A DNA stretch of 63,616 bases, from the NCBI GenBank assembly GCA_903887275.1, contig CAISPD010000151.1, positions 1 to 63,616 on the forward strand, in the 5' to 3' direction. The notes beneath the pieces are model-generated. The model searched no databases, was not told the DNA's origin, and saw only the letters and a list, made by a program, of their open reading frames with translations. This document shows, in pieces, positions 4,487-22,579 of the stretch. The position numbers were made by a program, and so were the translations under genes. Origin of the DNA: an uncultured Mucilaginibacter sp. (lineage in GTDB: Bacteria; Bacteroidota; Bacteroidia; Sphingobacteriales; Sphingobacteriaceae). The first letter of the stretch is position 1, and each line of letters opens with the position of its first letter.

Positions 4487-4664
4487 GATAGTACGGAAAG
4501 CCGCAAAAATAGGAAATTCAGACGGGTTTGGCTAATGGTTTTATCAGGCAACAGGGCCTGTCTGGAATGTATAGAATTGCTGGCCGTTGTGTACTTTTAA
4601 TTTTTTGATAAAAATCACATCCAGTATACTCCCTGTATTATTGACCATCTCAAATTAACTAAAT

Positions 4665-4672
4665 TACTACCT
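4665..4672 (+). promoter_or_regulatory. candidate -7 box for the cobalamin-domain gene
   Basis: TACCTTTA matches 7 of 8 positions of the Bacteroidota -7 consensus TAnnTTTG and lies about 21 bp before the ATG at 4694. A TTG lies upstream at a slightly long distance. Inferred from pattern only. Confidence 0.35.
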
Positions 4673-4693
4673 TTACAACACCAATAGCTATAG

Positions 4694-5113
4694 ATGAGTA
4701 ATACCTTTAACCGTCCGATTCGTGTACTGGTTGCCAAAGTTGGCCTTGACGGGCATGACCGTGGTGCGCGTATTATTGCAACCAGTTTGCGTGATGCAGG
4801 GATGGAAGTGATTTATACAGGCTTACGCCAGACACCCGAAATGGTGGTAAATGCAGCCTTGCAGGAAGATGTGGATGCTATCGGTATTTCCATACTATCA
4901 GGTGCCCATATGACTGTTTTCCCTAAGATCATTAAATTAATGAAGGAAAAGCAATTGGATGATGTTCTTGTGACCGGTGGTGGTATCATCCCCGAAAGTG
5001 ATATGCAGGAACTTAAAGCGATAGGCGTAGGTGAACTTTTCCCGCCGGGAACCACCACAGCAGATATCGTTACATATATTACCGAATGGGTGCACAAGCA
5101 TCGCAATTTTTGA
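4694..5113 (+). CDS. stand-alone cobalamin (B12)-binding subunit, methylmalonyl-CoA mutase small-domain type
   Basis: A 139-residue protein consisting only of the Rossmann-like B12-binding module that forms the C-terminus of methylmalonyl-CoA mutase. The base-off/His-on signature is present: D19-x-H21-x-x-G24 (LDGHDRG), SxL at 66-68 (SIL) and the glycine-rich TGGG around 94-97. In split mutases such a subunit pairs with a separate catalytic TIM-barrel chain, which is not in this window. It could also serve another adenosylcobalamin mutase. The following enoyl-CoA hydratase gene starts 55 bp downstream, suggesting a shared role in acyl-CoA metabolism. Confidence 0.9.
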
Positions 5114-5168
5114 GCCGGGAGAGTAACTACCAGCTATCATTAAAAAAAGAACTCAATCATATTGTCCT

Positions 5169-5954
5169 ATGTCAATGTTCGAAAATCTGCTCACCCACAC
5201 CGAAAGCGGTATCCACCATATCATTATCAATCGGGCCGGAAAGCTAAATGCACTCAACCGGGATACATTGGCCGAACTGCACACTGCACTATACGATGCT
5301 TTTAATAACGAAAAGGTAGGCGGTATTATCATTACCGGTGCCGGCGACCGTGCTTTTGTTGCTGGTGCCGATATAGCTGAGTTTGCATCGTTCGATTCGG
5401 TCAAAGGAGAAGAATTGGCACGCAGAGGTCACAAAAACGTTTTTGATTTTATCGAAAACAGCAACAAACCTATCATAGCTGCTATCAATGGATTTGCTTT
5501 AGGAGGTGGATTAGAACTGGCGCTGGCCTGCCATATCCGTATTGCTTCGGAAAATGCCAAGATGGGGCTTCCTGAAGTAACGCTTGGCCTGATTCCAGGT
5601 TATGGGGGCACCCAGCGCTTGACCAGGTTGGTAGGCAGAGGCCGGGCTTTGGAGATGATCCTTACCGGCGACATGATCACAGCGCAGGAAGCTTATCAAT
5701 TCGGATTGGTAAATCATGTGGTCAGCCAGTATGATCTGTTAACCAAAGCTGAAACATTGCTACGTGTAATCCTGTCGCGTGCGCCATTGGCATTGCAATC
5801 GGCAATACGGGCCGTAAATGCATCCTCACAGCAGGGTGTAAATGGCTTCGAAGAGGAGATAGAATTGTTCGGACAGTGTTTTGATACGGCCGATTTTAAA
5901 GAAGGCGTGGATGCTTTTTTCGGGAAAAGAAAGCCTGAGTTTCGTGGCAAATAA
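5169..5954 (+). CDS. enoyl-CoA hydratase/isomerase family protein
   Basis: Crotonase-fold enzyme of 261 residues, likely adding water to 2-enoyl-CoA in fatty-acid or amino-acid degradation. Both catalytic glutamates of true hydratases are present: Glu116 in GGGLELA and Glu136 in GLPEVTLG, spaced exactly 20 residues apart as in mammalian mitochondrial hydratase. The oxyanion-hole segments (AGADI about 65-69, NGFALGGG 107-114) and the GYGGTQRL motif are intact. A second ATG lies two codons in; the first was kept. Probably co-transcribed with the upstream cobalamin-binding subunit. Confidence 0.92.
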   Translation: MSMFENLLTHTESGIHHIIINRAGKLNALNRDTLAELHTALYDAFNNEKVGGIIITGAGDRAFVAGADIAEFASFDSVKGEELARRGHKNVFDFIENSNKPIIAAINGFALGGGLELALACHIRIASENAKMGLPEVTLGLIPGYGGTQRLTRLVGRGRALEMILTGDMITAQEAYQFGLVNHVVSQYDLLTKAETLLRVILSRAPLALQSAIRAVNASSQQGVNGFEEEIELFGQCFDTADFKEGVDAFFGKRKPEFRGK

Positions 5955-6273
5955 ACTGTTTTGAACGCAGCACCTATCGGCCTCAGATCTGCAATCCGAC
6001 TTTACTCATCAAGAGATCCCCGAATCCCTGCTTTTTATTGAAAATACATATTATTTCATAAAATGGGTAGGATGCTTATTCCTTTGACAGCAAGTAATTT
6101 TAAAATTATCAATTAAAGCAATAGTGCCTGTAAAGGCTTACTTTAACTAATTTTTATTCAGGAAATAGAAAAATTAGCGCAATAATTAAATTTTACCTTA
6201 AATTTTAGCAGTTTTGTATGTAACTTGATATAGGTATAATCCGTTTACCAGTCAAAATTAGCTAATACCTGTT
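5955..6273. other. 319-bp intergenic stretch, nothing firm
   Basis: AT-rich spacer between the hydratase and the sigma-54 activator genes. I see no reading frame worth reporting, no strong terminator hairpin and no full promoter match; it presumably contains the promoter of the downstream regulator. Confidence 0.3.
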
Positions 6274-7689
6274 ATGAAAAAAATCCTCATCATTGATGAT
6301 GAAGTGAACGTTGCGTTATTACTCTCAAAGTTTTTGACCCGTAACGGTTTTGATGTTACCACAGCTGCTACCGGATCAGGCGGTCTCGAATTGTTAAAAA
6401 ACGGAGCTTATGACCTGGTGCTTTGTGATTTCAGACTGGAAGATACCGATGGGCGCGAAATGCTGAAAAGCATCAAGATCCAGTACCCCAAAACAGGTGT
6501 TATTATTATTACCGGTTATTCGGATATTAAAATGGCGGTTGAGCTCATTAAAATGGGTGCCTATGATTATATCACCAAACCGCTTTACCCCGACGAAATT
6601 TTAAATACCATAAATAAAGCATTTGAAACCCACCATGCATTGGTCGACGAACCCGAGAATGTGGCATCGGTTTCAAAACCCAGCAGCAAGAAGCCGCAAT
6701 TACCCAATAGCGAATTTGTTGTGGGTACAAGTAAAGCCGCCAAAGAACTGGCAAGGCAAATTGAACTGGTTGCACCAACAAATTACAGTGTAATCATTTT
6801 AGGTGAAAGCGGTACAGGTAAAGAGTCGGCTGCTAAAAACATACACCTCCACAGCCAGCGTGCCAATATGCCTTTCATTGCGATGGACTGCGGATCGCTT
6901 ACCAAAGAGCTTGCAGCGAGCGAATTTTTCGGTCACGAAAAAGGCTCTTTTACCGGAGCACTCTACACTAAAATTGGTCACTTTGAAATGGCCAATGGCG
7001 GCACATTGTTTTTGGATGAAGTGGGCAACCTATCTTACGACATACAGGCGGCGCTACTCCGTACCGTGCAGGAAAGAAAAGTAAAACGCATAGGCAGTAC
7101 CAAGGAAATTGATCTTGACGTACGCATCATCATAGCAACCAACGAAAACCTGCAGGACGGAATCTCAAAAGGAAGGTTTAGGGAAGACCTTTACCACCGT
7201 TTTAATGAGTTTACCATTTACATGCCTGCGCTTCGCGAATTGGGAAGTGACATAATGTTGCTGGCAAATCATTTTTTACAAATTGCCAATGCCGAGCTTG
7301 GCCGTAATGTAACTACATTTTCTCCGGAAGTCGAGGAATGTTTTGTGAATTACCGTTGGCCCGGAAATATCCGCGAGCTGAAGAACGTAGTACGTCGGGC
7401 AACGCTTATAACAGAGGGTGATGTTATTCCTTTAAAAGCATTGCCACTGGAGATATCCAATTTCAGATCTTCGCCCGTTCAAGTATCTGAGATAATTGCT
7501 GAGCATGAAATACCGGTTGCTAAAGAAAATCGGCACGACTTAAAAAATGCAGCTCAGGAGGCAGAGTATGATACTATTCTGAAAGTATTGCGTGAGGTGA
7601 ATTTTAACAAGACCAAAGCTGCCGAAATTCTTAATATCGATCGTAAAACACTCTATAATAAGATGAAAGCGATCAACTTAAGTAAATAA
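6274..7689 (+). CDS. sigma-54-dependent response regulator (NtrC family)
   Basis: Two-component transcription activator of 471 residues. Receiver domain 1-120 has the acidic pair D8/D9, phospho-acceptor Asp52 and Lys102. The central AAA+ domain (about 148-380) has Walker A GESGTGKE at 177-184, the sigma-54 contact loop GSFTGA at 224-229, Walker B LFLDE at 245-249 and the RFREDLYHR arginine-finger segment near 301-309. A Fis-type helix-turn-helix ends the protein (NKTKAAEILNIDRKTLYNKM). It should remodel sigma-54 RNA polymerase at distant enhancers after phosphorylation. No full histidine kinase is adjacent; instead a 70-residue histidine-box protein starts 2 bp after its stop codon. Confidence 0.95.
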   Translation: MKKILIIDDEVNVALLLSKFLTRNGFDVTTAATGSGGLELLKNGAYDLVLCDFRLEDTDGREMLKSIKIQYPKTGVIIITGYSDIKMAVELIKMGAYDYITKPLYPDEILNTINKAFETHHALVDEPENVASVSKPSSKKPQLPNSEFVVGTSKAAKELARQIELVAPTNYSVIILGESGTGKESAAKNIHLHSQRANMPFIAMDCGSLTKELAASEFFGHEKGSFTGALYTKIGHFEMANGGTLFLDEVGNLSYDIQAALLRTVQERKVKRIGSTKEIDLDVRIIIATNENLQDGISKGRFREDLYHRFNEFTIYMPALRELGSDIMLLANHFLQIANAELGRNVTTFSPEVEECFVNYRWPGNIRELKNVVRRATLITEGDVIPLKALPLEISNFRSSPVQVSEIIAEHEIPVAKENRHDLKNAAQEAEYDTILKVLREVNFNKTKAAEILNIDRKTLYNKMKAINLSK

Positions 7690-7691
7690 AA

Positions 7692-7904
7692 ATGCCAGAA
7701 CCAGCAAAAGAAAATACGCCTGCCGAAGGTAATACGCGCCGGATAAGGCACGATATTCGTAATCAGCTGTCGAACATTAACCTTTCTGTCGAACAATTGA
7801 AATACGAGATTCCAGACGACGCAGGGTCAGATACTGCTTTTTATATCAATACCATTGCCGTAAGTTGTGCAAAGATCAACCTTTTGCTGGACGATCTTGA
7901 CTAG
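7692..7904 (+). CDS. small histidine-box (DHp-like) protein, unknown
   Basis: A 70-residue, predicted all-helical cytoplasmic protein starting 2 bp after the sigma-54 activator stop, so almost certainly co-translated. After a Pro/Glu-rich start, residues about 17-36 read IRHDIRNQLSNINLSVEQLK. This resembles the H-box helix of histidine kinases and Spo0B-type phosphotransferases (RHDxxNxLxxI). A second helix (about 49-69) could complete a dimerising two-helix hairpin. There is no ATP-binding domain. It could be a phosphotransfer partner, dimerisation partner or phosphatase cofactor for the neighbour; that role is inference. Not recognised as a named family. Confidence 0.7.
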   Translation: MPEPAKENTPAEGNTRRIRHDIRNQLSNINLSVEQLKYEIPDDAGSDTAFYINTIAVSCAKINLLLDDLD

Positions 7905-7990
7905 GCTTCCAAAGGGTACATTTTTAGTAGTTGACCAAAAACTTTTTACATTTTATTTGTTAATAGAGCGTACTTATTACAAGTTCCTCT

Positions 7991-9034
7991 ATGTCCTCTT
8001 TTAATTACCGGCAACGTAACAATATAATACTGGCAGCTATTATTGTACTGGGTTGTATTTTATTGTATGCCATGTCTGGCCTTTTCAGCGCCATATTGGG
8101 GGCCATTATCCTGTTTACTATTTTCAGGTCAGTTTACTTATACCTGGTTGAAAAGAGAAATTGGAACAGTGCATTCACCGCCGTTTTGATCATATTTACT
8201 TCTTTAGTGGTCATTGTGATCCCATTCCTTTCTATGAGCATCATGATCGTTGAGCGGATAACATCACTTTCCCGGTCCGATTTACCGATACAGGATTGGA
8301 TCTATAAGATTGATATTTTCGCGAGTCATCATTTTGGCCAGCCCAAACTGGCAGAAAACACCCTCCAGAAACTGGGTACGTTTATAACAGACCTTTTTCC
8401 TTCAATTTTGGGTAGTGCAGTAAATATTTTAATGAATTTGTTGGTGATGTATTTCCTGCTGTTTTTCATGTTTACGCAAATGAAAGATTTTGAAAACGTA
8501 CTCTTAAAATATGCACCTTTTCGCGAACAACACACATTGAAATTTGCAATAGCATTGCGTAATGCTACGTATAGTAATGTGTTAGGACAGGGCATCATTG
8601 CGGTAGTTCAGGGCGTATTGCTGGGTATGGGTTTTTATGCCTTTGGTATACCCGACCCGGTATTTTGGGGGATGCTTGGCGCCCTTATCTCTTTCCTTCC
8701 GGTTGTTGGTGCACCAACTTTGGCAATTCCAACCAGTATCATACTTTTTGCAAACGGGCATTCCTTCAAGGGCATCGCATTGCTTATTTATGGCCTATTG
8801 GTCATTGGTAATATTGATAATATATTTAGGATGATCATCAATAAACGACTGGCAAATACACATCCTATCATCTCGGTGATCGGCGTATTTATAGGTTTGC
8901 CTTTATTTGGTATACTTGGTCTGGTTTTCGGCCCATTGCTGTTGTCCTATTTCTTACTTTTAGTTGAAATTTATGAGACCAATCGAATGGCTGCTGATCG
9001 GCTTGAAAGAATCAGGACAAGTACTGAGAGTTGA
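7991..9034 (+). CDS. AI-2E family transporter (PerM/YdiK-like membrane protein)
   Basis: Integral inner-membrane protein of 347 residues with paired hydrophobic helices at the N-terminus (about 12-48), further helices near 60-82 and 145-170, and a tightly packed C-terminal set from about 205 to 330. It has the family's FLPVVGAP segment and glycine-rich GLPLFGILGLVFGPL near the end. Family members export autoinducer-2 or act as Na+/H+ antiporters or permeases of unknown substrate, so the actual cargo cannot be told. It ends with a basic cytoplasmic tail. Confidence 0.9.
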   Translation: MSSFNYRQRNNIILAAIIVLGCILLYAMSGLFSAILGAIILFTIFRSVYLYLVEKRNWNSAFTAVLIIFTSLVVIVIPFLSMSIMIVERITSLSRSDLPIQDWIYKIDIFASHHFGQPKLAENTLQKLGTFITDLFPSILGSAVNILMNLLVMYFLLFFMFTQMKDFENVLLKYAPFREQHTLKFAIALRNATYSNVLGQGIIAVVQGVLLGMGFYAFGIPDPVFWGMLGALISFLPVVGAPTLAIPTSIILFANGHSFKGIALLIYGLLVIGNIDNIFRMIINKRLANTHPIISVIGVFIGLPLFGILGLVFGPLLLSYFLLLVEIYETNRMAADRLERIRTSTES

Positions 9035-9192
9035 TTTAATGAGAAATTTTTGCTGGCACGGCAAGAAATACCGATATTAATGCCATCATTTACCATAAGG
9101 TTAAAAATACCTGACGAAAAGTCCGTTTAAAATAATTGGCAGGATATTTAACCGTTATAAAACAAACTAGTTCAAATTAAAATTATAGTACT

Positions 9193-9459
9193 ATGTCAGA
9201 TAACTCAAAAGTTATAGTTGCACTGCTGGCTGGATTAGCGGCTGGGGCAGCATTAGGAATATTATTCGCACCAGACAAGGGCACAGAAACACGCGATAAG
9301 CTTACCGACTCGCTTAAGAAATTGGGCGATTCAATCAAAGAGACCGCCGCCAATGAAATTGATAGTCTTGTTGGTTTAAAGGATAAAGTGGTTGATAATA
9401 TCAAAAGCAAAATAAAAACTGCTGATGAAGAATACCAGGACGACCTGGAACACGCATAA
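9193..9459 (+). CDS. YtxH domain-containing protein
   Basis: An 88-residue membrane-anchored protein. The hydrophobic glycine/alanine-rich segment (about 8-26, with [14 protein letters not shown]) is the YtxH signature, followed by a long amphipathic Lys/Asp-rich helix with coiled-coil character. YtxH proteins are associated with general stress responses in Firmicutes and Bacteroidota; the biochemical function is unknown. It is first of a compact trio with a holin-like membrane protein and a small unknown protein. Confidence 0.85.
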
Positions 9460-9467
9460 AACCTCAT

Positions 9468-9493
9468 CGATCCCGGTTAATGATCCGGGATCG
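9468..9493. other. 9-bp perfect hairpin between ytxH-type and holin-like genes
   Basis: CGATCCCGG (9468-9476) and CCGGGATCG (9485-9493) are perfect inverted arms around an 8-nt loop. No T-run follows, so it is more likely an mRNA processing or stability element, or an attenuator inside the operon, than a strong terminator. Confidence 0.5.
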
Positions 9494-9506
9494 TAGTATA
9501 CTTCTT

Positions 9507-9845
9507 ATGGAAGAAAAGAAAGAAACGCCGCCACCAATTATAGACCAGGTTAAAGCGTATGTTGAAACACAGCTGGAACTAACCAAACTGGAGGCCGTTG
9601 AAAAGGGCTCGAAATTTTTGGCGGGCTTTGTTGTCGACCTCATTATCGGGGTATGTTTTGTTTTGGGTTTTTTATTTATAAGCCTGGCACTTGCTTTATT
9701 AATATCACGTCTGTTAGGCTCGTATTGGGCCGGATTTGGTTGCATGGCCGCACTTTACCTGATCATAGCGTTTATTGTTATTAAACGTAAGGATAAGCTG
9801 CGCCCTACATTGACTAACCTTTTTATCCGTAATTTTTTCAAATAG
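9507..9845 (+). CDS. holin-like small membrane protein (phage holin superfamily III-like)
   Basis: About 112 residues from the ATG at 9507. I prefer this start to one at 9480 because the earlier codon lies inside the hairpin at 9468-9493. An N-terminal amphipathic helix (QVKAYVETQLELTKLEAVEK) precedes two membrane helices (about 42-70 and 75-92) and a basic C-terminal tail. The layout matches chromosomal Phage_holin_3_6-type proteins found next to YtxH proteins in Bacteroidota, which are not evidence of a prophage. The stop codon is 1 bp from the next gene start. Confidence 0.75.
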   Translation: MEEKKETPPPIIDQVKAYVETQLELTKLEAVEKGSKFLAGFVVDLIIGVCFVLGFLFISLALALLISRLLGSYWAGFGCMAALYLIIAFIVIKRKDKLRPTLTNLFIRNFFK

Positions 9846-9846
9846 T

Positions 9847-10269
9847 ATGGACGAGCTGAATATTGATAACATCAACGACTTAAGGGCGGAAATAGTTCGT
9901 TTGCGCGCCGTTCGCGATGAGCAGGGCAAAGCACTCGCAAAGCGTTTCAATACGCCTATGACGGCACTCTCTACTTTGTATACGGTTTTTCCGAATGAGG
10001 CTGAAGAAGGAGCAAAGAATGATATTTTTCACCAGGACCTGGTTGGTGTTGCTTCCAGGATTTTTTTGCCGATGTTGCTTAATTCAACACTTTTCCGCAA
10101 TTCAAATATTTTGATAAAAGGGCTGGTGGGCTTATTCTCACAAAAAGCCTCCGATTATATCAATGAAGATACAGTACTTGGGATTTGGGATAAAGTAAAG
10201 ACCCTGTTTGAAAAAAAGAAAAAGCCTGCTCCCGACTATGGTATCCCGCCCGAAAGTGAGGCTTCCTGA
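9847..10269 (+). CDS. unknown protein, third gene of the ytxH/holin-like trio
   Basis: A 140-residue protein not assigned to a named family. The N-terminal about 35 residues are helical and charged, the middle (about 55-100) is moderately hydrophobic and could be a membrane-associated helix pair, and the C-terminus is Lys-rich then Pro/Glu-rich. It begins 1 bp after the holin-like stop, so it is co-translated, and it likely acts with the two upstream envelope proteins in stress-related membrane function (inference). Confidence 0.7.
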   Translation: MDELNIDNINDLRAEIVRLRAVRDEQGKALAKRFNTPMTALSTLYTVFPNEAEEGAKNDIFHQDLVGVASRIFLPMLLNSTLFRNSNILIKGLVGLFSQKASDYINEDTVLGIWDKVKTLFEKKKKPAPDYGIPPESEAS

Positions 10270-10307
10270 ATTCTTCAAAACGGTATCCCGCAACCAAACT
10301 AAAAAGC

Positions 10308-10880
10308 TTAAGGTTTAATTGTCCTGAAGGTTAAATTGATCCGTGGATTTTTGATTTTGGCCGATTTAGCTATCTGGTGTTGCCAGTGATGCTGCAGGTC
10401 GCCTTTCATCACCAGAACTGAGCCACCTTCCAGCAGTATTTGCTGTTTTACATGGTGATCTTTTTTCAATCTCAGATCGAAACGTCTGGCCTCTCCTAAA
10501 TTTACCGAGGCGATTATTGGGTTGCGGCCAAGCTCGGGCTCGTCGTCGCTATGCCAGCCCATCGAGTCGCTGCCATCGCGGTAAAGGTTAATTAATACGC
10601 TATTGAAAGTTGTACCAGCCAGCTCTTCAGTTTTTGCCCTGATATAAAGTAATTCATCCGTCCAGGGTAAAGGATCAAATGATACTCCCGAATATTTGTA
10701 AACTGCGCCAGCATCCCCATACCATGCAGTCAGGCGCGGCGTCAAAACGCTGCGGCCAAATATGATAATGGATTCCTGTCTCCAGGCGATGTTTCCTGTC
10801 AATTTTGCAAAAAGCACTTCGCCGTCATCAACAGAAAATACTCCGGGAAAATATCCAAGCAACTCAGGTGTAATTATCAT
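10308..10880 (-). CDS. AlkB-like 2-oxoglutarate/Fe(II) dioxygenase
   Basis: A 190-residue dioxygenase of the AlkB family, closest in layout to the ABH2/ABH3 type, expected to demethylate 1-methyladenine or 3-methylcytosine in DNA or RNA. Iron ligands are His110 and Asp112 (MGWHSDD) and His168 (WQHQI). The 2-oxoglutarate-binding arginines fall in the family motif RINLTFR at 180-186. An aromatic substrate-flipping region precedes (RLTAWYGD about 49-56). It is 40 bp downstream of the YceH-like gene on the same strand. Confidence 0.93.
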   Translation of the reverse strand: MIITPELLGYFPGVFSVDDGEVLFAKLTGNIAWRQESIIIFGRSVLTPRLTAWYGDAGAVYKYSGVSFDPLPWTDELLYIRAKTEELAGTTFNSVLINLYRDGSDSMGWHSDDEPELGRNPIIASVNLGEARRFDLRLKKDHHVKQQILLEGGSVLVMKGDLQHHWQHQIAKSAKIKNPRINLTFRTIKP

Positions 10881-10920
10881 GCTGGCACCTTTTAATAAAC
10901 TAAAAACTTGGGACTTATAC

Positions 10921-11571
10921 TCAACTTAACTCTTTCATCAATTTATCAAAAGCTTCTTTTAGTTCAGCCAGTTCGGTTTCTACTTTTGCAAGGCGTACTT
11001 CAAGGTTACCTGAGGTGTTTGATGGAGATTCAGATGCGAAACTTTCCTCGTTCCAGTCTGTACTGCCACCCAGTAAATGAACGTAGCGAACTTCTTTTTG
11101 GCCCGGCCGGCGTGCAAGTTGTTTTACGAAGGGATTTTCGCCGGAAGACAATTTATCCAGTATTTCCTGCACCTCTTCTATCGATTCAAATTCGTATAGG
11201 CGTCCCGAATTGGTATTCAATTCGCCAGGTGTTTGAGGACCACGGAGAATTAGCAGGCAGATGATGGCAATCTCAGAAGGGATAACCGGGTATACAATAG
11301 CAAAGTTATGTTTGTATTTGACCACACGGTCTGTACCGCCTGTAGCTGTAGATATCAGCCCGCGGCGTTTCAGGGTGTTCAGCGTTTCGATGATTGTGGC
11401 CTCATCGTAATTTACAACCGGTTTGCGCGAAGTTTTCTGATTACATGCAGCTACCAGGCTGTTAACTGTCATTGGATAATAGTCGGGCGTGGTACGGCTT
11501 TTTTCCATCATAGCACCTAAAACGCGCAGTTCGGTGTCCTCAAGTTGGGGCAATACAGGTGTTGAATCCAT
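10921..11571 (-). CDS. YceH/DUF480 family protein
   Basis: Cytoplasmic protein of 216 residues, the usual length of the UPF0502/YceH family. The characteristic start LEDTELRVLGAMMEKSRTTP, conserved YYPMTVNSLVAACNQK and RGPQTPGEL are present. Structures of the family show tandem winged-helix domains, suggesting nucleic-acid binding, but no defined function is established. The C-terminus (about 185-216) is predicted coiled coil. Likely transcribed with the AlkB-like gene. Confidence 0.92.
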   Translation of the reverse strand: MDSTPVLPQLEDTELRVLGAMMEKSRTTPDYYPMTVNSLVAACNQKTSRKPVVNYDEATIIETLNTLKRRGLISTATGGTDRVVKYKHNFAIVYPVIPSEIAIICLLILRGPQTPGELNTNSGRLYEFESIEEVQEILDKLSSGENPFVKQLARRPGQKEVRYVHLLGGSTDWNEESFASESPSNTSGNLEVRLAKVETELAELKEAFDKLMKELS

Positions 11572-11604
11572 GTGCTAAAGATAGAAAGCAGGCTCGGTTT
11601 TTTA

Positions 11605-11641
11605 CAAAATAAAAAAGCACCGCCCCAACCAGGCGATGCTT
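11605..11641 (-). terminator. rho-independent terminator of the secreted-protein gene
   Basis: On the minus strand a stem AAGCATCGCC / GGCGGTGCTT (plus coordinates 11615-11641) with a 7-nt loop is followed by a run of six T. It lies just downstream of the gene ending at 11679. Confidence 0.8.
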
Positions 11642-11678
11642 CATCAACTAAACCCATATCTCTCAATTATGGGGTAAC

Positions 11679-12041
11679 TTATTGCATAAAGAAATAATCT
11701 TTATGGTCGCCGTCGTCATAAACGTGCATTTGTTTAACTACGTCGGCAGTTTCTGTTTTTACTTCTACAGTGTAATCACCATAGTCAAGGCGACTGATCA
11801 CATAGCCTTTTTCGGTAGGCAAACCTTTGGAAATTTTATCTTTAAAAATTACGTTATGGTCCTTATCGTAAATAATAACCACTGATTTTTCGGCATCAAC
11901 TTTTACGGCGAAGCCCGGGCGGTCTGACAAATTACCAAAGCTTACTGCCTTGTCGTCTGAACTTGATTTTGCTGGAGTTGCAGCAAATACACTGGAACCT
12001 AACCCTAATACCAGTGTTGCGATGATGATGATCTTTTTCAT
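11679..12041 (-). CDS. small secreted protein, unknown
   Basis: A 120-residue protein with a clear Sec signal peptide (about 1-21, ending SSVFA-A). The mature part is beta-rich (AVKVDAEKSVVIIYD, YGDYTVEVKTE) and resembles short Bacteroidota periplasmic beta-sandwich proteins, but I cannot name the family. It is a single gene with its own terminator and a roughly 270-bp upstream region shared with the divergent MBL-hydrolase gene. Confidence 0.75.
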   Translation of the reverse strand: MKKIIIIATLVLGLGSSVFAATPAKSSSDDKAVSFGNLSDRPGFAVKVDAEKSVVIIYDKDHNVIFKDKISKGLPTEKGYVISRLDYGDYTVEVKTETADVVKQMHVYDDGDHKDYFFMQ

Positions 12042-12311
12042 TTTCTTTTAATTTTTTATTGTAAACCTGATTTATTCTGTTAATTGAATAACCAAAACAA
12101 CAACAAGTTTTCCGACCATTAAAATGAATTAGACCGGGAGCTGTCGCTTATAGACGAATAGCCTTTTTGTTCGGATAAAGCCTGGTAAATGCTTTTTAAT
12201 CAGCAAAAAGCAGTGTTTGTAGCTAAATAAACAGCGTTGATGGATAGGTTAAAGCAGTTCGTCGGATATTTTTAGGATAAAGTGCTTAAAAGCGGTTAAT
12301 TTGCAGCTATC

Positions 12312-13148
12312 ATGTCACTTTTTATCGCATCAATAAATTCGGGCAGTAATGGCAACTGTTATTACGTGGGTAATAGCAATGAAGCAATACTTGTAGATGC
12401 CGGCATCTCTTGTCGCGAGACCGAAAAGCGTATGAAAAGGCTCGGCCTCGCAATGAAAAAAGTTAAGGCGATATTTATTTCCCACGAACATTCTGACCAT
12501 ATCAACGGTGTGTCCGTTCTCTCGCGGAAATATCAATTGCCGATATATATTACGCCGGCAACACTGGCAGGTAGCCGGATGGAGCTTGAGCCCGATCTGA
12601 TAAAAGCTTTCAAAGCTTACGAACCTATTGTGGTTGGCAAACTAACTATCACTGCTTTTCCAAAATTCCATGATGCCGCACATGCTCATAGTTTTACGGT
12701 TAGTAACGAGGGTATCAGGGTAGGTGTTTTTACCGATATCGGCGTTGTATGCGATCACCTGCAAACCCATTTTTCGGAATGCCATGCTGCCTTTCTGGAA
12801 GCTAACTATGATGAAGATATGCTGGAAAACGGACGGTATCCTTACCATTTAAAAAGACGGATCAGTGGCGGTCTCGGGCACTTATCTAACAAACAGGCAC
12901 TGGCGCTTTTCTTAAGCCACCGGCCACCTTATATGAGTCATTTATTGCTATCGCATTTGTCGCGTGATAATAATGATCCGCAAATGGTTCATGAACTATT
13001 TAGCAAACACGCTGATGGAACTGAAATAGTAGTAGCATCACGTTACCAGGAAAGTGCCATTTATTTTGTAGATGGTTCTATGCCTGCAGGAAGAAAACCT
13101 ATGAATAAAATTCCCGAAAGCATTCCGGTTCAATACAGCTTATTTTAG
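12312..13148 (+). CDS. MBL-fold metallohydrolase (WalJ/YycJ-like)
   Basis: Metallo-beta-lactamase-fold hydrolase of 278 residues. The metal motif SHEHSDH lies at about 57-63; further metal-binding candidates are HDAAHAH around 118-124 and the Asp of FTDIG about 140. The family includes YycJ/WalJ, a 5'-3' exonuclease-like protein linked to cell-wall regulation and mismatch repair in Firmicutes. No WalRK genes are nearby, so only the fold and general hydrolase function are supported. Confidence 0.88.
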   Translation: MSLFIASINSGSNGNCYYVGNSNEAILVDAGISCRETEKRMKRLGLAMKKVKAIFISHEHSDHINGVSVLSRKYQLPIYITPATLAGSRMELEPDLIKAFKAYEPIVVGKLTITAFPKFHDAAHAHSFTVSNEGIRVGVFTDIGVVCDHLQTHFSECHAAFLEANYDEDMLENGRYPYHLKRRISGGLGHLSNKQALALFLSHRPPYMSHLLLSHLSRDNNDPQMVHELFSKHADGTEIVVASRYQESAIYFVDGSMPAGRKPMNKIPESIPVQYSLF

Positions 13149-21191: not shown

Positions 21192-21821
21192 ATGAGCAAG
21201 GAGGCATTATTTGATATCTTATCATCGATATCCGGGTTAATTCCGCTAATAGCCTTTGCTTATAATTTCCAAAATCTCGACCGAATATTTAAGCTGATAG
21301 GCCTTTTTTTTATTATAGCAGCATTATCTGATCTGCTGCAATGGCTTTTACCCTATTGGCATTTTTCAAATATTTGGGTTGTACACATTTTTGTTATCAT
21401 CAATATTATATTTTTCAGTGTTATTTATTATATGGCTTTTGTAAATAGCCTCCAGAAGAAAATCACACTGATTCTTTCGGGTCTTGCATTAGTGTTGGGG
21501 CTATATTCCTGTAAAGATATTTTTGACTATCCTACTGTTTCCAATACGGCCTCAAGTATCGTTTTTATAGTTCTTGCGCTTCTTTTTTTCTTTCAGCTGC
21601 TAACGCGGCAGGAATTTGTCCATATCGAGAAGCAGGGTTTCTTTTGGTTCAATGCTTCAGTACTCTTTTATTTTTCCATCAATATTTTTCTGTTTATGCT
21701 CATCGCGATGATACCCCTGCTCGAGCGGCCCTCGTATTATATTATTAATAACATTACCAATATTATCGCTAACTTGTTATTCACAATCGCATTACTTTGC
21801 CGTCCCCAGAAAGCAACATAA
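21192..21821 (+). CDS. multi-pass membrane protein, unknown
   Basis: A 209-residue protein with about seven predicted membrane helices filling most of its length and a very short basic C-terminus. No family recognised. Its last 25 bp overlap the start of the histidine kinase gene, which argues for translational coupling and for a role as membrane sensor or partner of that kinase (inference). Confidence 0.75.
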   Translation: MSKEALFDILSSISGLIPLIAFAYNFQNLDRIFKLIGLFFIIAALSDLLQWLLPYWHFSNIWVVHIFVIINIIFFSVIYYMAFVNSLQKKITLILSGLALVLGLYSCKDIFDYPTVSNTASSIVFIVLALLFFFQLLTRQEFVHIEKQGFFWFNASVLFYFSINIFLFMLIAMIPLLERPSYYIINNITNIIANLLFTIALLCRPQKAT

Positions 21822-22579
21822 TACCTGTACTTATTATTGGAACGCTGGTAGTAGTGGTACTCATTACCGGTCTGTTTTTCTTTGTGATCATTTATCAGCG
21901 TAAAATGATCAAGAACCAGGTGGCGCTCAGACGACTGGAAGATGAGCGGCAACAGGAATTGCTAAAAGCTGTGATCGAAACCCAGGAAAGTGAACGTAAA
22001 CGCCTGGCGGAAGACTTGCATGACAGTGTTGGCCAGGTTTTGTCGGCCATTAAATTGAAGTTGCATAAACTGGATAAACAAAGCGATGGTAAGAACGAAA
22101 TGCTGGCAGATACCTGTAAATTGACTGACGAATGCATACAGGAGATACGCAATATCATCCATAATGTATTACCGCCGGTTTTAACAGATTTTGGATTGAT
22201 TGACGCACTGGAAGCTCTCTGTAATAAAATGAACAGCAATACCGCTATTCAGGTTGTATTCACCAAAAAGTTGTCGCCAGAGCGTTTTCCTTCAGCTATT
22301 GAGCTAACAGTTTATCGTATAGCCCAGGAGCTTTTTGGTAATGCAGTAAAGCATTCTGATGCAACGTCGATCCACGTGGAGCTATCTAAACATGGAAATG
22401 CTTTGATCATGAGTTTTCGCGATAATGGAAAAGGCTTTAACCTTGATGATGTGACCCAGGGGTTTGGAATAAAGAACCTGCATAGCAGGGTTCAACTTAT
22501 CAATGGGAAAATTGATATTTATTCAAAACCCCTTAGCGGAACTATAACTACAATTAATATCCCCCTGCCACGCGCTTAA
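21797..22579 (+). CDS. sensor histidine kinase (HisKA_3/NarX-like)
   Basis: A 260-residue kinase. One membrane helix at about 9-31 is followed directly by a coiled coil and the dimerisation domain ERKRLAEDLHDSVGQ with phospho-acceptor His75, then a HATPase_c domain with N box GNAVKH (Asn182) and G1 box DNGKGF (209-214). It has essentially no extracellular sensor, so input probably comes from the preceding membrane protein. The start is TTG at 21797, overlapping the previous gene by 25 bp; the next ATG would lose the membrane helix. It pairs with the NarL-type regulator 38 bp downstream. Confidence 0.93.
   Translation: MPSPESNIIPVLIIGTLVVVVLITGLFFFVIIYQRKMIKNQVALRRLEDERQQELLKAVIETQESERKRLAEDLHDSVGQVLSAIKLKLHKLDKQSDGKNEMLADTCKLTDECIQEIRNIIHNVLPPVLTDFGLIDALEALCNKMNSNTAIQVVFTKKLSPERFPSAIELTVYRIAQELFGNAVKHSDATSIHVELSKHGNALIMSFRDNGKGFNLDDVTQGFGIKNLHSRVQLINGKIDIYSKPLSGTITTINIPLPRA

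Follow-up and report, generated by a model that had tools for sequence, protein, structure and literature searches.

In the window, by which is meant the whole 63,616-nucleotide stretch of an uncultured Mucilaginibacter sp. that was analyzed, a gene for a sigma-54-dependent response regulator precedes one that encodes only 70 residues, and beyond the latter lies a block of downstream genes found in the same order in related genomes (Table 1). According to Pfam, the 471-aa regulator is composed of Response_reg, Sigma54_activat, and HTH_8 (Fis type) domains, and its receiver contains Asp52 together with D8, D9, T80, and K102. The small gene begins with an ATG 2 bp past the stop codon of the regulator (7692 against 7689), in agreement with the first-pass annotation, which had described a gene placed 2 bp behind a full NtrC-type regulator.

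Table 1. Genes at the regulator locus, with positions in the window.
Feature	Coordinates	Strand	Basis
Response regulator of the sigma-54-dependent type, 471 aa; contains a receiver with Asp52, an AAA+ domain bearing a GSFTGA loop, and a Fis-type HTH; putative partner of the small protein	6274..7689	+	Pfam, conserved receiver residues
DHp-only protein, 70 aa; His20, Asp21, Asn24, and Gln25, the last replacing the usual HisKA proline	7692..7904	+	ORF, Pfam, alignment, AlphaFold2
AI-2E family transporter; opens the block of conserved downstream genes and delimits the slot	7991..9034	+	Pfam, synteny
YtxH-like protein, syntenic downstream gene	9193..9459	+	Pfam, synteny
Holin-like protein (Phage_holin_3_6), syntenic downstream gene	9480..9845	+	Pfam, synteny
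140-aa protein, syntenic; no convincing Pfam match (only DUF1192, E 0.15)	9847..10269	+	Pfam, synteny

Orthologs of the regulator were found in 159 of 251 genomes of the family (E up to 1e-140, six candidates scored per genome), a count that misses an interrupted one in genome G196. In one genome of the genus (locus L127) the regulator frame is interrupted and the small gene behind it is still intact. The usual sigma-54 contact loop is GAFTGA. The loop of the window regulator reads GSFTGA, KGSFTGA is present in all 83 regulator orthologs that adjoin a small gene, and GAFTGA occurs in two of nine orthologs that have no kinase gene behind them. A scan with a relaxed sigma-54 promoter pattern gave no match upstream of the neighboring genes in 18 loci (up to 300 bp before the NtrC gene, 150 bp before the AI-2E gene, and 200 bp before the YtxH gene), and its two other matches within 4501-12400 are unconvincing. 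A sigma-70 scan stayed at the level of shuffled sequence (11 found against a mean of 10.0).

The small gene and its protein

The 70-aa protein matches the Pfam HisKA profile (PF00512) at 22.0 bits (E 1.7e-4), which is below the curated cut-off of 26.9, and its only other Pfam match is DUF7278 (E 0.052); no NCBIfam model matched at E up to 0.01. No HATPase_c domain was matched in Pfam and the chain ends at residue 70, leaving it without the catalytic domain that defines a histidine kinase. AlphaFold2, run on an alignment that comprised all distinct orthologs except L002, L006, and L154 (80 of 83), predicts an antiparallel pair of helices at residues 11-39 and 46-68 with a mean pLDDT of 86.8. 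The Hpt profile of Pfam gave no match, and an HPt protein would have four helices in one chain rather than two. In structure comparison, DHp chains match the model at Z about 7, and the first row of the Foldseek result is a chain of the RetS-GacS co-complex with further DHp chains below it. However, no Foldseek match reached an E-value below 0.001, and similar scores are obtained by unrelated hairpins and designed bundles, so the fold alone does not identify the protein. A sequence search of solved structures with the small-protein profile was likewise without a match at E up to 0.1. Pfam also contains Spo0B family models, none of which was among the Pfam matches (E up to 1) or the NCBIfam matches (E up to 0.01). 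The 70-aa protein is a bare HisKA-like DHp hairpin without an ATPase domain. The first-pass annotation had proposed just such a 70-residue H-box hairpin and had likened its H-box to those of kinases and of Spo0B-type phosphotransferases; the hairpin and the likeness to kinases hold, and for the likeness to Spo0B no matching model was found.

For counting, 121 fetched loci known to have the gene were reduced to 83 distinct genes by dropping identical DNA, with profile matches accepted at E up to 1e-6 in frames of up to 130 aa. Eighty of these come from the genus of the window or its near relatives and three from a second genus (g26); they are related sequences rather than independent events. 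The His is present in all 83 proteins, as are Asn at H+4 and Leu at H+6, and the residue at H+1 is Asp in 82 and Glu in one; the His, the acid beside it, and the T/N position of HisKA proteins are therefore complete throughout. HisKA kinases usually carry a proline at H+5. This residue is replaced in every small protein, by Gln in 81 and by Glu in two. The length is 62 to 78 aa across the set, with start codons chosen by us, and no broken copy is found among the 83, all of which had been picked by profile match. All 83 genes lie directly behind an orthologous regulator (72 to 100% identical), at a spacing of -4 to +7 bp in 81 cases and of -11 and +18 bp in the other two. Non-conservation of the His, or absence of the gene beside orthologous regulators, would have spoken against the first-pass annotation, and neither is seen.

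A profile search found the gene in 52/52 genomes of the genus in one sample, including that of the window. In a second sample of 60 genomes, which overlaps the first and again includes the window's own genome, a single-sequence search found one copy in 34 of the 36 genus members besides that of the window; the two without a match are assemblies only 58 and 83% complete. It gave no match in 23 genomes of other families. Ten named relatives carry the gene in our scan, six of them Mucilaginibacter and four labeled Bacteroidetes bacterium. Across 395 genomes of the class, 64 matched the profile in a search that may miss rare cases; small frames occurred in only seven genomes, all from the genus of the window, and the other matches listed sit in frames of 245 to 1239 aa. 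The small gene is real and conserved.

Contents of the slot behind the regulator

Most sampled loci of the family have the same layout, in which the regulator is followed by a slot of variable content and then by common downstream genes. The order AI-2E transporter, YtxH-like, and holin-like is found in the window, in 16 of the 20 loci L107-L126 (it is incomplete in L110, L116, L119, and L125), and in all seven further loci of the genus that were read (L129-L135). In g26, the place of the AI-2E gene is taken by one whose product has about 380 aa, and the holin-like and 9847-type genes were recognized in two of the three loci.

The slot is occupied by the small DHp gene in the genus of the window and in the three g26 genomes. 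In g28 and g46 it holds a full MASE3-(PAS)-HisKA-HATPase kinase. Kinases are joined by other genes in several groups: a receiver together with a REC-PAS-DHp-HATPase protein in the three groups g41, g30, and g35 (Pfam was applied to the receiver of L107 alone, and L117 showed no receiver); a further kinase in g36 and in a single genome of g37; and a REC-PAS-DHp protein without an ATPase domain in g43 (L120). In g31 the slot contains a MASE3-PAS-HisKA protein, a 159-aa ORF, and a PAS-HisKA-HATPase kinase. A REC-PAS-DHp protein without an ATPase domain stands alone in g48 (L122) and g25 (L102), and a second g43 locus (L119) has REC-PAS only. The distance from the DHp protein to the next gene is only 57 bp (L120), 67 bp (L122), and 75 bp (L102), so no ATPase domain is hidden there. 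An OmpA-family gene fills the slot in g29, and the slot is empty at three loci each of g44 and g37 and at one locus each of g25 and g33. The first-pass annotation did not recognize a minimal partner in this position; it can now be placed, with full kinases at the same site in related genera.

In a phylogenetic tree, the small proteins (27 of the 83 were included) form one clade with a UFBoot value of 98, and the split that separates them and 17 slot-type DHps from all other sequences has a value of 91. The other sequences comprised three first-kinase DHps, 18 of the 52 HisKA matches of this genome, and one DHp from another genome of the genus; 16 of the 17 slot-type DHps are known to lie behind the regulator, the 17th being that of g47. 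Since the alignment has about 65 columns, the support is moderate. With moderate support from synteny and phylogeny, then, the small protein is homologous to the DHp of the slot kinases, groups with it, and represents an end point of slot reduction in two genera. The gene would be the surviving DHp domain of a sensor kinase formerly encoded behind the regulator, the sensor parts and the ATPase domain having presumably been lost in the line leading to the two genera and the hairpin kept under selection.

Relocation of the cognate kinase within the genome was also considered. With the g28 slot kinase as query (E up to 1e-20), the genome gave three matches (E-values of 5e-23 to 7e-22 at 25-33% identity). 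They fall within residues 565-925 of that kinase, and none reached its MASE3 part. A profile search of the genome for a second copy of the small protein gave no strong match, the best other one having an E-value of 0.002.

The stages found at this one syntenic place, namely a full kinase, a relative without an ATPase domain, a bare DHp, and nothing, make up a testable natural series for asking which part of a kinase survives when sensing and autophosphorylation are given up.

Proposed phosphate chemistry and rival explanations

The receiver residues of the regulator are conserved. Asp52, D8, and D9 are found in 80 of 83 distinct regulator orthologs, and T80 and K102 in 81, the remainder being cut or interrupted at these positions. 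All five residues are kept in 13/13 loci with a slot kinase, in 3/3 with a reduced slot protein, and in 9/9 without a slot kinase. The last group implies that a partner in the slot is not needed for phosphorylation of the regulator. Regulators that have no partner gene, if phosphorylated at all, must draw phosphate from another source, which may also be true of the regulator of the window.

The His, invariant in the 83 small proteins, is present in only five of the 17 slot-type DHps (g28 twice, g31, g46, and g47); in the other 12 it is replaced by N, D, E, K, R, or L. Ten of these 12 retain the acid and nine the Asn at H+4, which indicates that a retained acid and Asn do not by themselves prove phosphate chemistry; the g25 slot protein has E at the His position and K at H+1. 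The proline at H+5 is seen in the alignment of the slot kinases. For CrdS and three further HisKA kinases, the acid beside the His is reported to be required only for kinase activity and the T/N at H+4 only for phosphatase activity, and the exchange of the H+5 proline of CrdS for alanine is reported to lower phosphatase activity greatly while kinase activity is retained (PMC3510030). In the small proteins the residues tied to each activity are retained and the proline is lost, a pattern that leans towards phosphate acceptance and transfer, with phosphatase action possible too. This argument is weakened by the slot DHps that have lost the His and still carry the acid, and by ChpT, a phosphotransferase that keeps the proline (PMC3433190). 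PhyT relays phosphate through an HRxxN motif that lacks the acid (PMC5898713), so the acid kept in the small proteins is not explained by relay from a receiver.

Taken together, we favor, with moderate confidence, the reading that the small protein is a conserved DHp remnant of the slot kinase that binds the receiver of NtrC and, via His20, passes phosphate to or from Asp52; it would most likely act as a carrier and/or a phosphatase for the regulator. In the most likely mechanism, two copies of the hairpin would form the usual four-helix bundle, which would dock on the receiver and allow His20 to exchange phosphate with Asp52, in either direction. A kinase or a receiver elsewhere in the cell would supply phosphate to His20, and back-transfer or hydrolysis would drain it from the regulator; no donor for His20 was found in this analysis. 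A precedent for the docking step is the DHp of HK853, which is described as binding its regulator at an equal molar ratio and as having a phosphatase activity that is diminished in the H260A mutant (PMC5727384).

The closest competitor, possible though rather unlikely in our judgment, is a dedicated phosphatase, in which the DHp only dephosphorylates NtrC that has been phosphorylated by other kinases or by small donors. The invariant Asn at H+4, a position reported to matter only for phosphatase activity (PMC3510030), would suit this role, as would the HK853 DHp, an active phosphatase in whose reaction the His is described as taking part (PMC5727384); the Asp52 kept by regulators without a slot kinase adds that another source of phosphate may exist. 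However, the acid, which in the same reported division of labor serves only the kinase reaction, is just as invariant, and the proline whose loss cost CrdS much of its phosphatase activity is gone from all 83 proteins (PMC3510030).

It is quite unlikely that the hairpin acts instead as a kinase subunit in trans, pairing with the DHp of another kinase and being phosphorylated by the ATPase domain of that kinase, whereby a distant sensor would reach NtrC. The invariant His and acid agree with such a role, at least six other proteins of the genome end, by our own reading, in a HisKA-type hairpin without an ATPase domain, and in the RetS-GacS co-complex that heads the Foldseek result one partner is described as a DHp alone. 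Against it, no free ATPase-domain protein is found among the HATPase_c matches that were read, and no partner kinase was identified. The genome has 57 such matches, of which 44 have HisKA in the same frame; ten of the other 13 were read by eye, the remaining three lying in long frames of 622 to 654 aa (C46, C159, and C182). Among the ten, those on C160, C87, and C240 are contig-edge pieces, that on C89 resembles gyrase B, and that on C218 resembles an RsbW-type anti-sigma factor, whereas C54:19853, C206, C223:10403, C239, and window positions 21797-22576 carry other domains or H-boxes. The last of these, on the forward strand, is probably a membrane kinase (about 260 aa) that has a HATPase_c match and, by our own reading, a HisKA_3-like H-box.

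Slightly more doubtful still is a non-catalytic docking or inhibitor protein, which would cover the receiver and block its phosphorylation or dimerization. The slot proteins of L120, L122, and L102 (in g43, g48, and g25, respectively) retain a DHp despite the loss of both the His and the ATPase domain, as such a role would allow; the contrast between an invariant His in the small proteins and its presence in five of 17 slot-type DHps argues otherwise. A decaying remnant or chance ORF without function is highly improbable: although the gene is a reduced form of a larger one, the slot is empty in eight of the loci L107-L126 (20 in all), and dN/dS has a median of 0.32 over the 138 pairs for which dS could be used, its occurrence throughout the genus, its narrow range of lengths without broken copies in the profile-selected set, and the substitution pattern of close pairs all disfavor it. 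The median proportion of differences is 0.83 at synonymous sites, which are near saturation in most pairs, against 0.34 at non-synonymous sites. For the 15 pairs with the lowest dS, the 12 with protein identity of at least 70% give a dN/dS of 0 to 0.22, and three divergent ones give 0.51 to 0.80 at a dS that is unreliable.

Relation to known systems

The small protein is nearest in kind to the degenerate-kinase phosphotransferases (PhyT, ChpT, and Spo0B), and is reduced further than the cases known to us. Kinase descent, moderately supported here by synteny and the tree, and a His-bearing hairpin are common to both. However, these proteins possess an ATPase-like C-terminal domain for which the chains of 62 to 78 aa leave no room, and Spo0B also has a C-terminal domain. 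PhyT, of the alphaproteobacteria, is described as a kinase with a degenerate ATPase domain encoded at the locus of its regulator. It is reported to pass phosphate on through one His and also to sequester the regulator; kinase descent is suspected by its authors, who count Spo0B and ChpT among the degenerate kinases as well (PMC5898713). PhyT thus resembles the small protein in being kinase-derived, in its place beside the regulator, and in the phosphate-carrying His on a DHp, but it is membrane-anchored, has a putative sensor domain in addition to the degenerate ATPase domain, and serves PhyR with an HRxxN motif, whereas the small protein has HDxxN and adjoins a sigma-54 activator (PMC5898713). 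ChpT and Spo0B are dimeric hairpin phosphotransferases that resemble kinases (PMC3433190, PMC5898713); for the small protein a dimer is only proposed. ChpT, described as unable to autophosphorylate, retains both a C-terminal domain of the ATPase-like kind and, at H+5, Pro38, whereas the small protein stops after helix 2 (PMC3433190).

With the DHp domains of HisKA kinases such as EnvZ and HK853, the small protein shares the H-(D/E)-x-x-N motif and a helix pair of about 60 residues, and DHp chains are among its structural matches. It differs in being a free-standing gene, in the Gln or Glu that replaces the proline, and in a score below the Pfam cut-off, and its structural matches are unspecific. 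In Rv0600c/Rv0601c with TcrA, the kinase domains are split between separate genes. This system, as described, is similar in placing kinase functions on separate proteins beside a regulator; for the small protein, no separate ATPase-domain partner was seen among the ten HisKA-less HATPase_c matches that were read, three of which are contig-edge pieces.

A search for stand-alone or split DHp proteins and for Mucilaginibacter sigma-54 regulators, in literature that takes in only a minority of subscription journals, found no description of such a protein. We tentatively propose that a single DHp hairpin of 62-78 residues works alone as the phosphate exchanger of one sigma-54 regulator, that is, as a complete two-component partner reduced in nature. 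If this is true, the lone hairpin would be the smallest known natural relative of histidine kinases with kinase-family chemistry; to our knowledge, there is no smaller one. Such a one-domain partner would offer biochemists and designers of signaling a very small module. It may also belong to a wider use, in these bacteria, of DHp ends that lack ATPase domains and are served in trans by other kinases.

Of the other proteins of this genome (G000) that end right after a HisKA-type hairpin, at least six are at loci L045-L050, on contigs C54, C237, C18, C187, C270, and C145, and two of them are cut at the start of the stretch. Read by eye, PAS, GAF, REC, or TPR-like parts precede the hairpin. All six have the His and a Pro at H+5, three have the acid, and none has T or N at H+4, where R, A, or G stands instead. 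Elsewhere in the window, two nearly identical ORFs of 71 aa lie about 360 bp apart on the reverse strand (978-1193 and 1336-1551), a likeness that suggests a tandem duplication.
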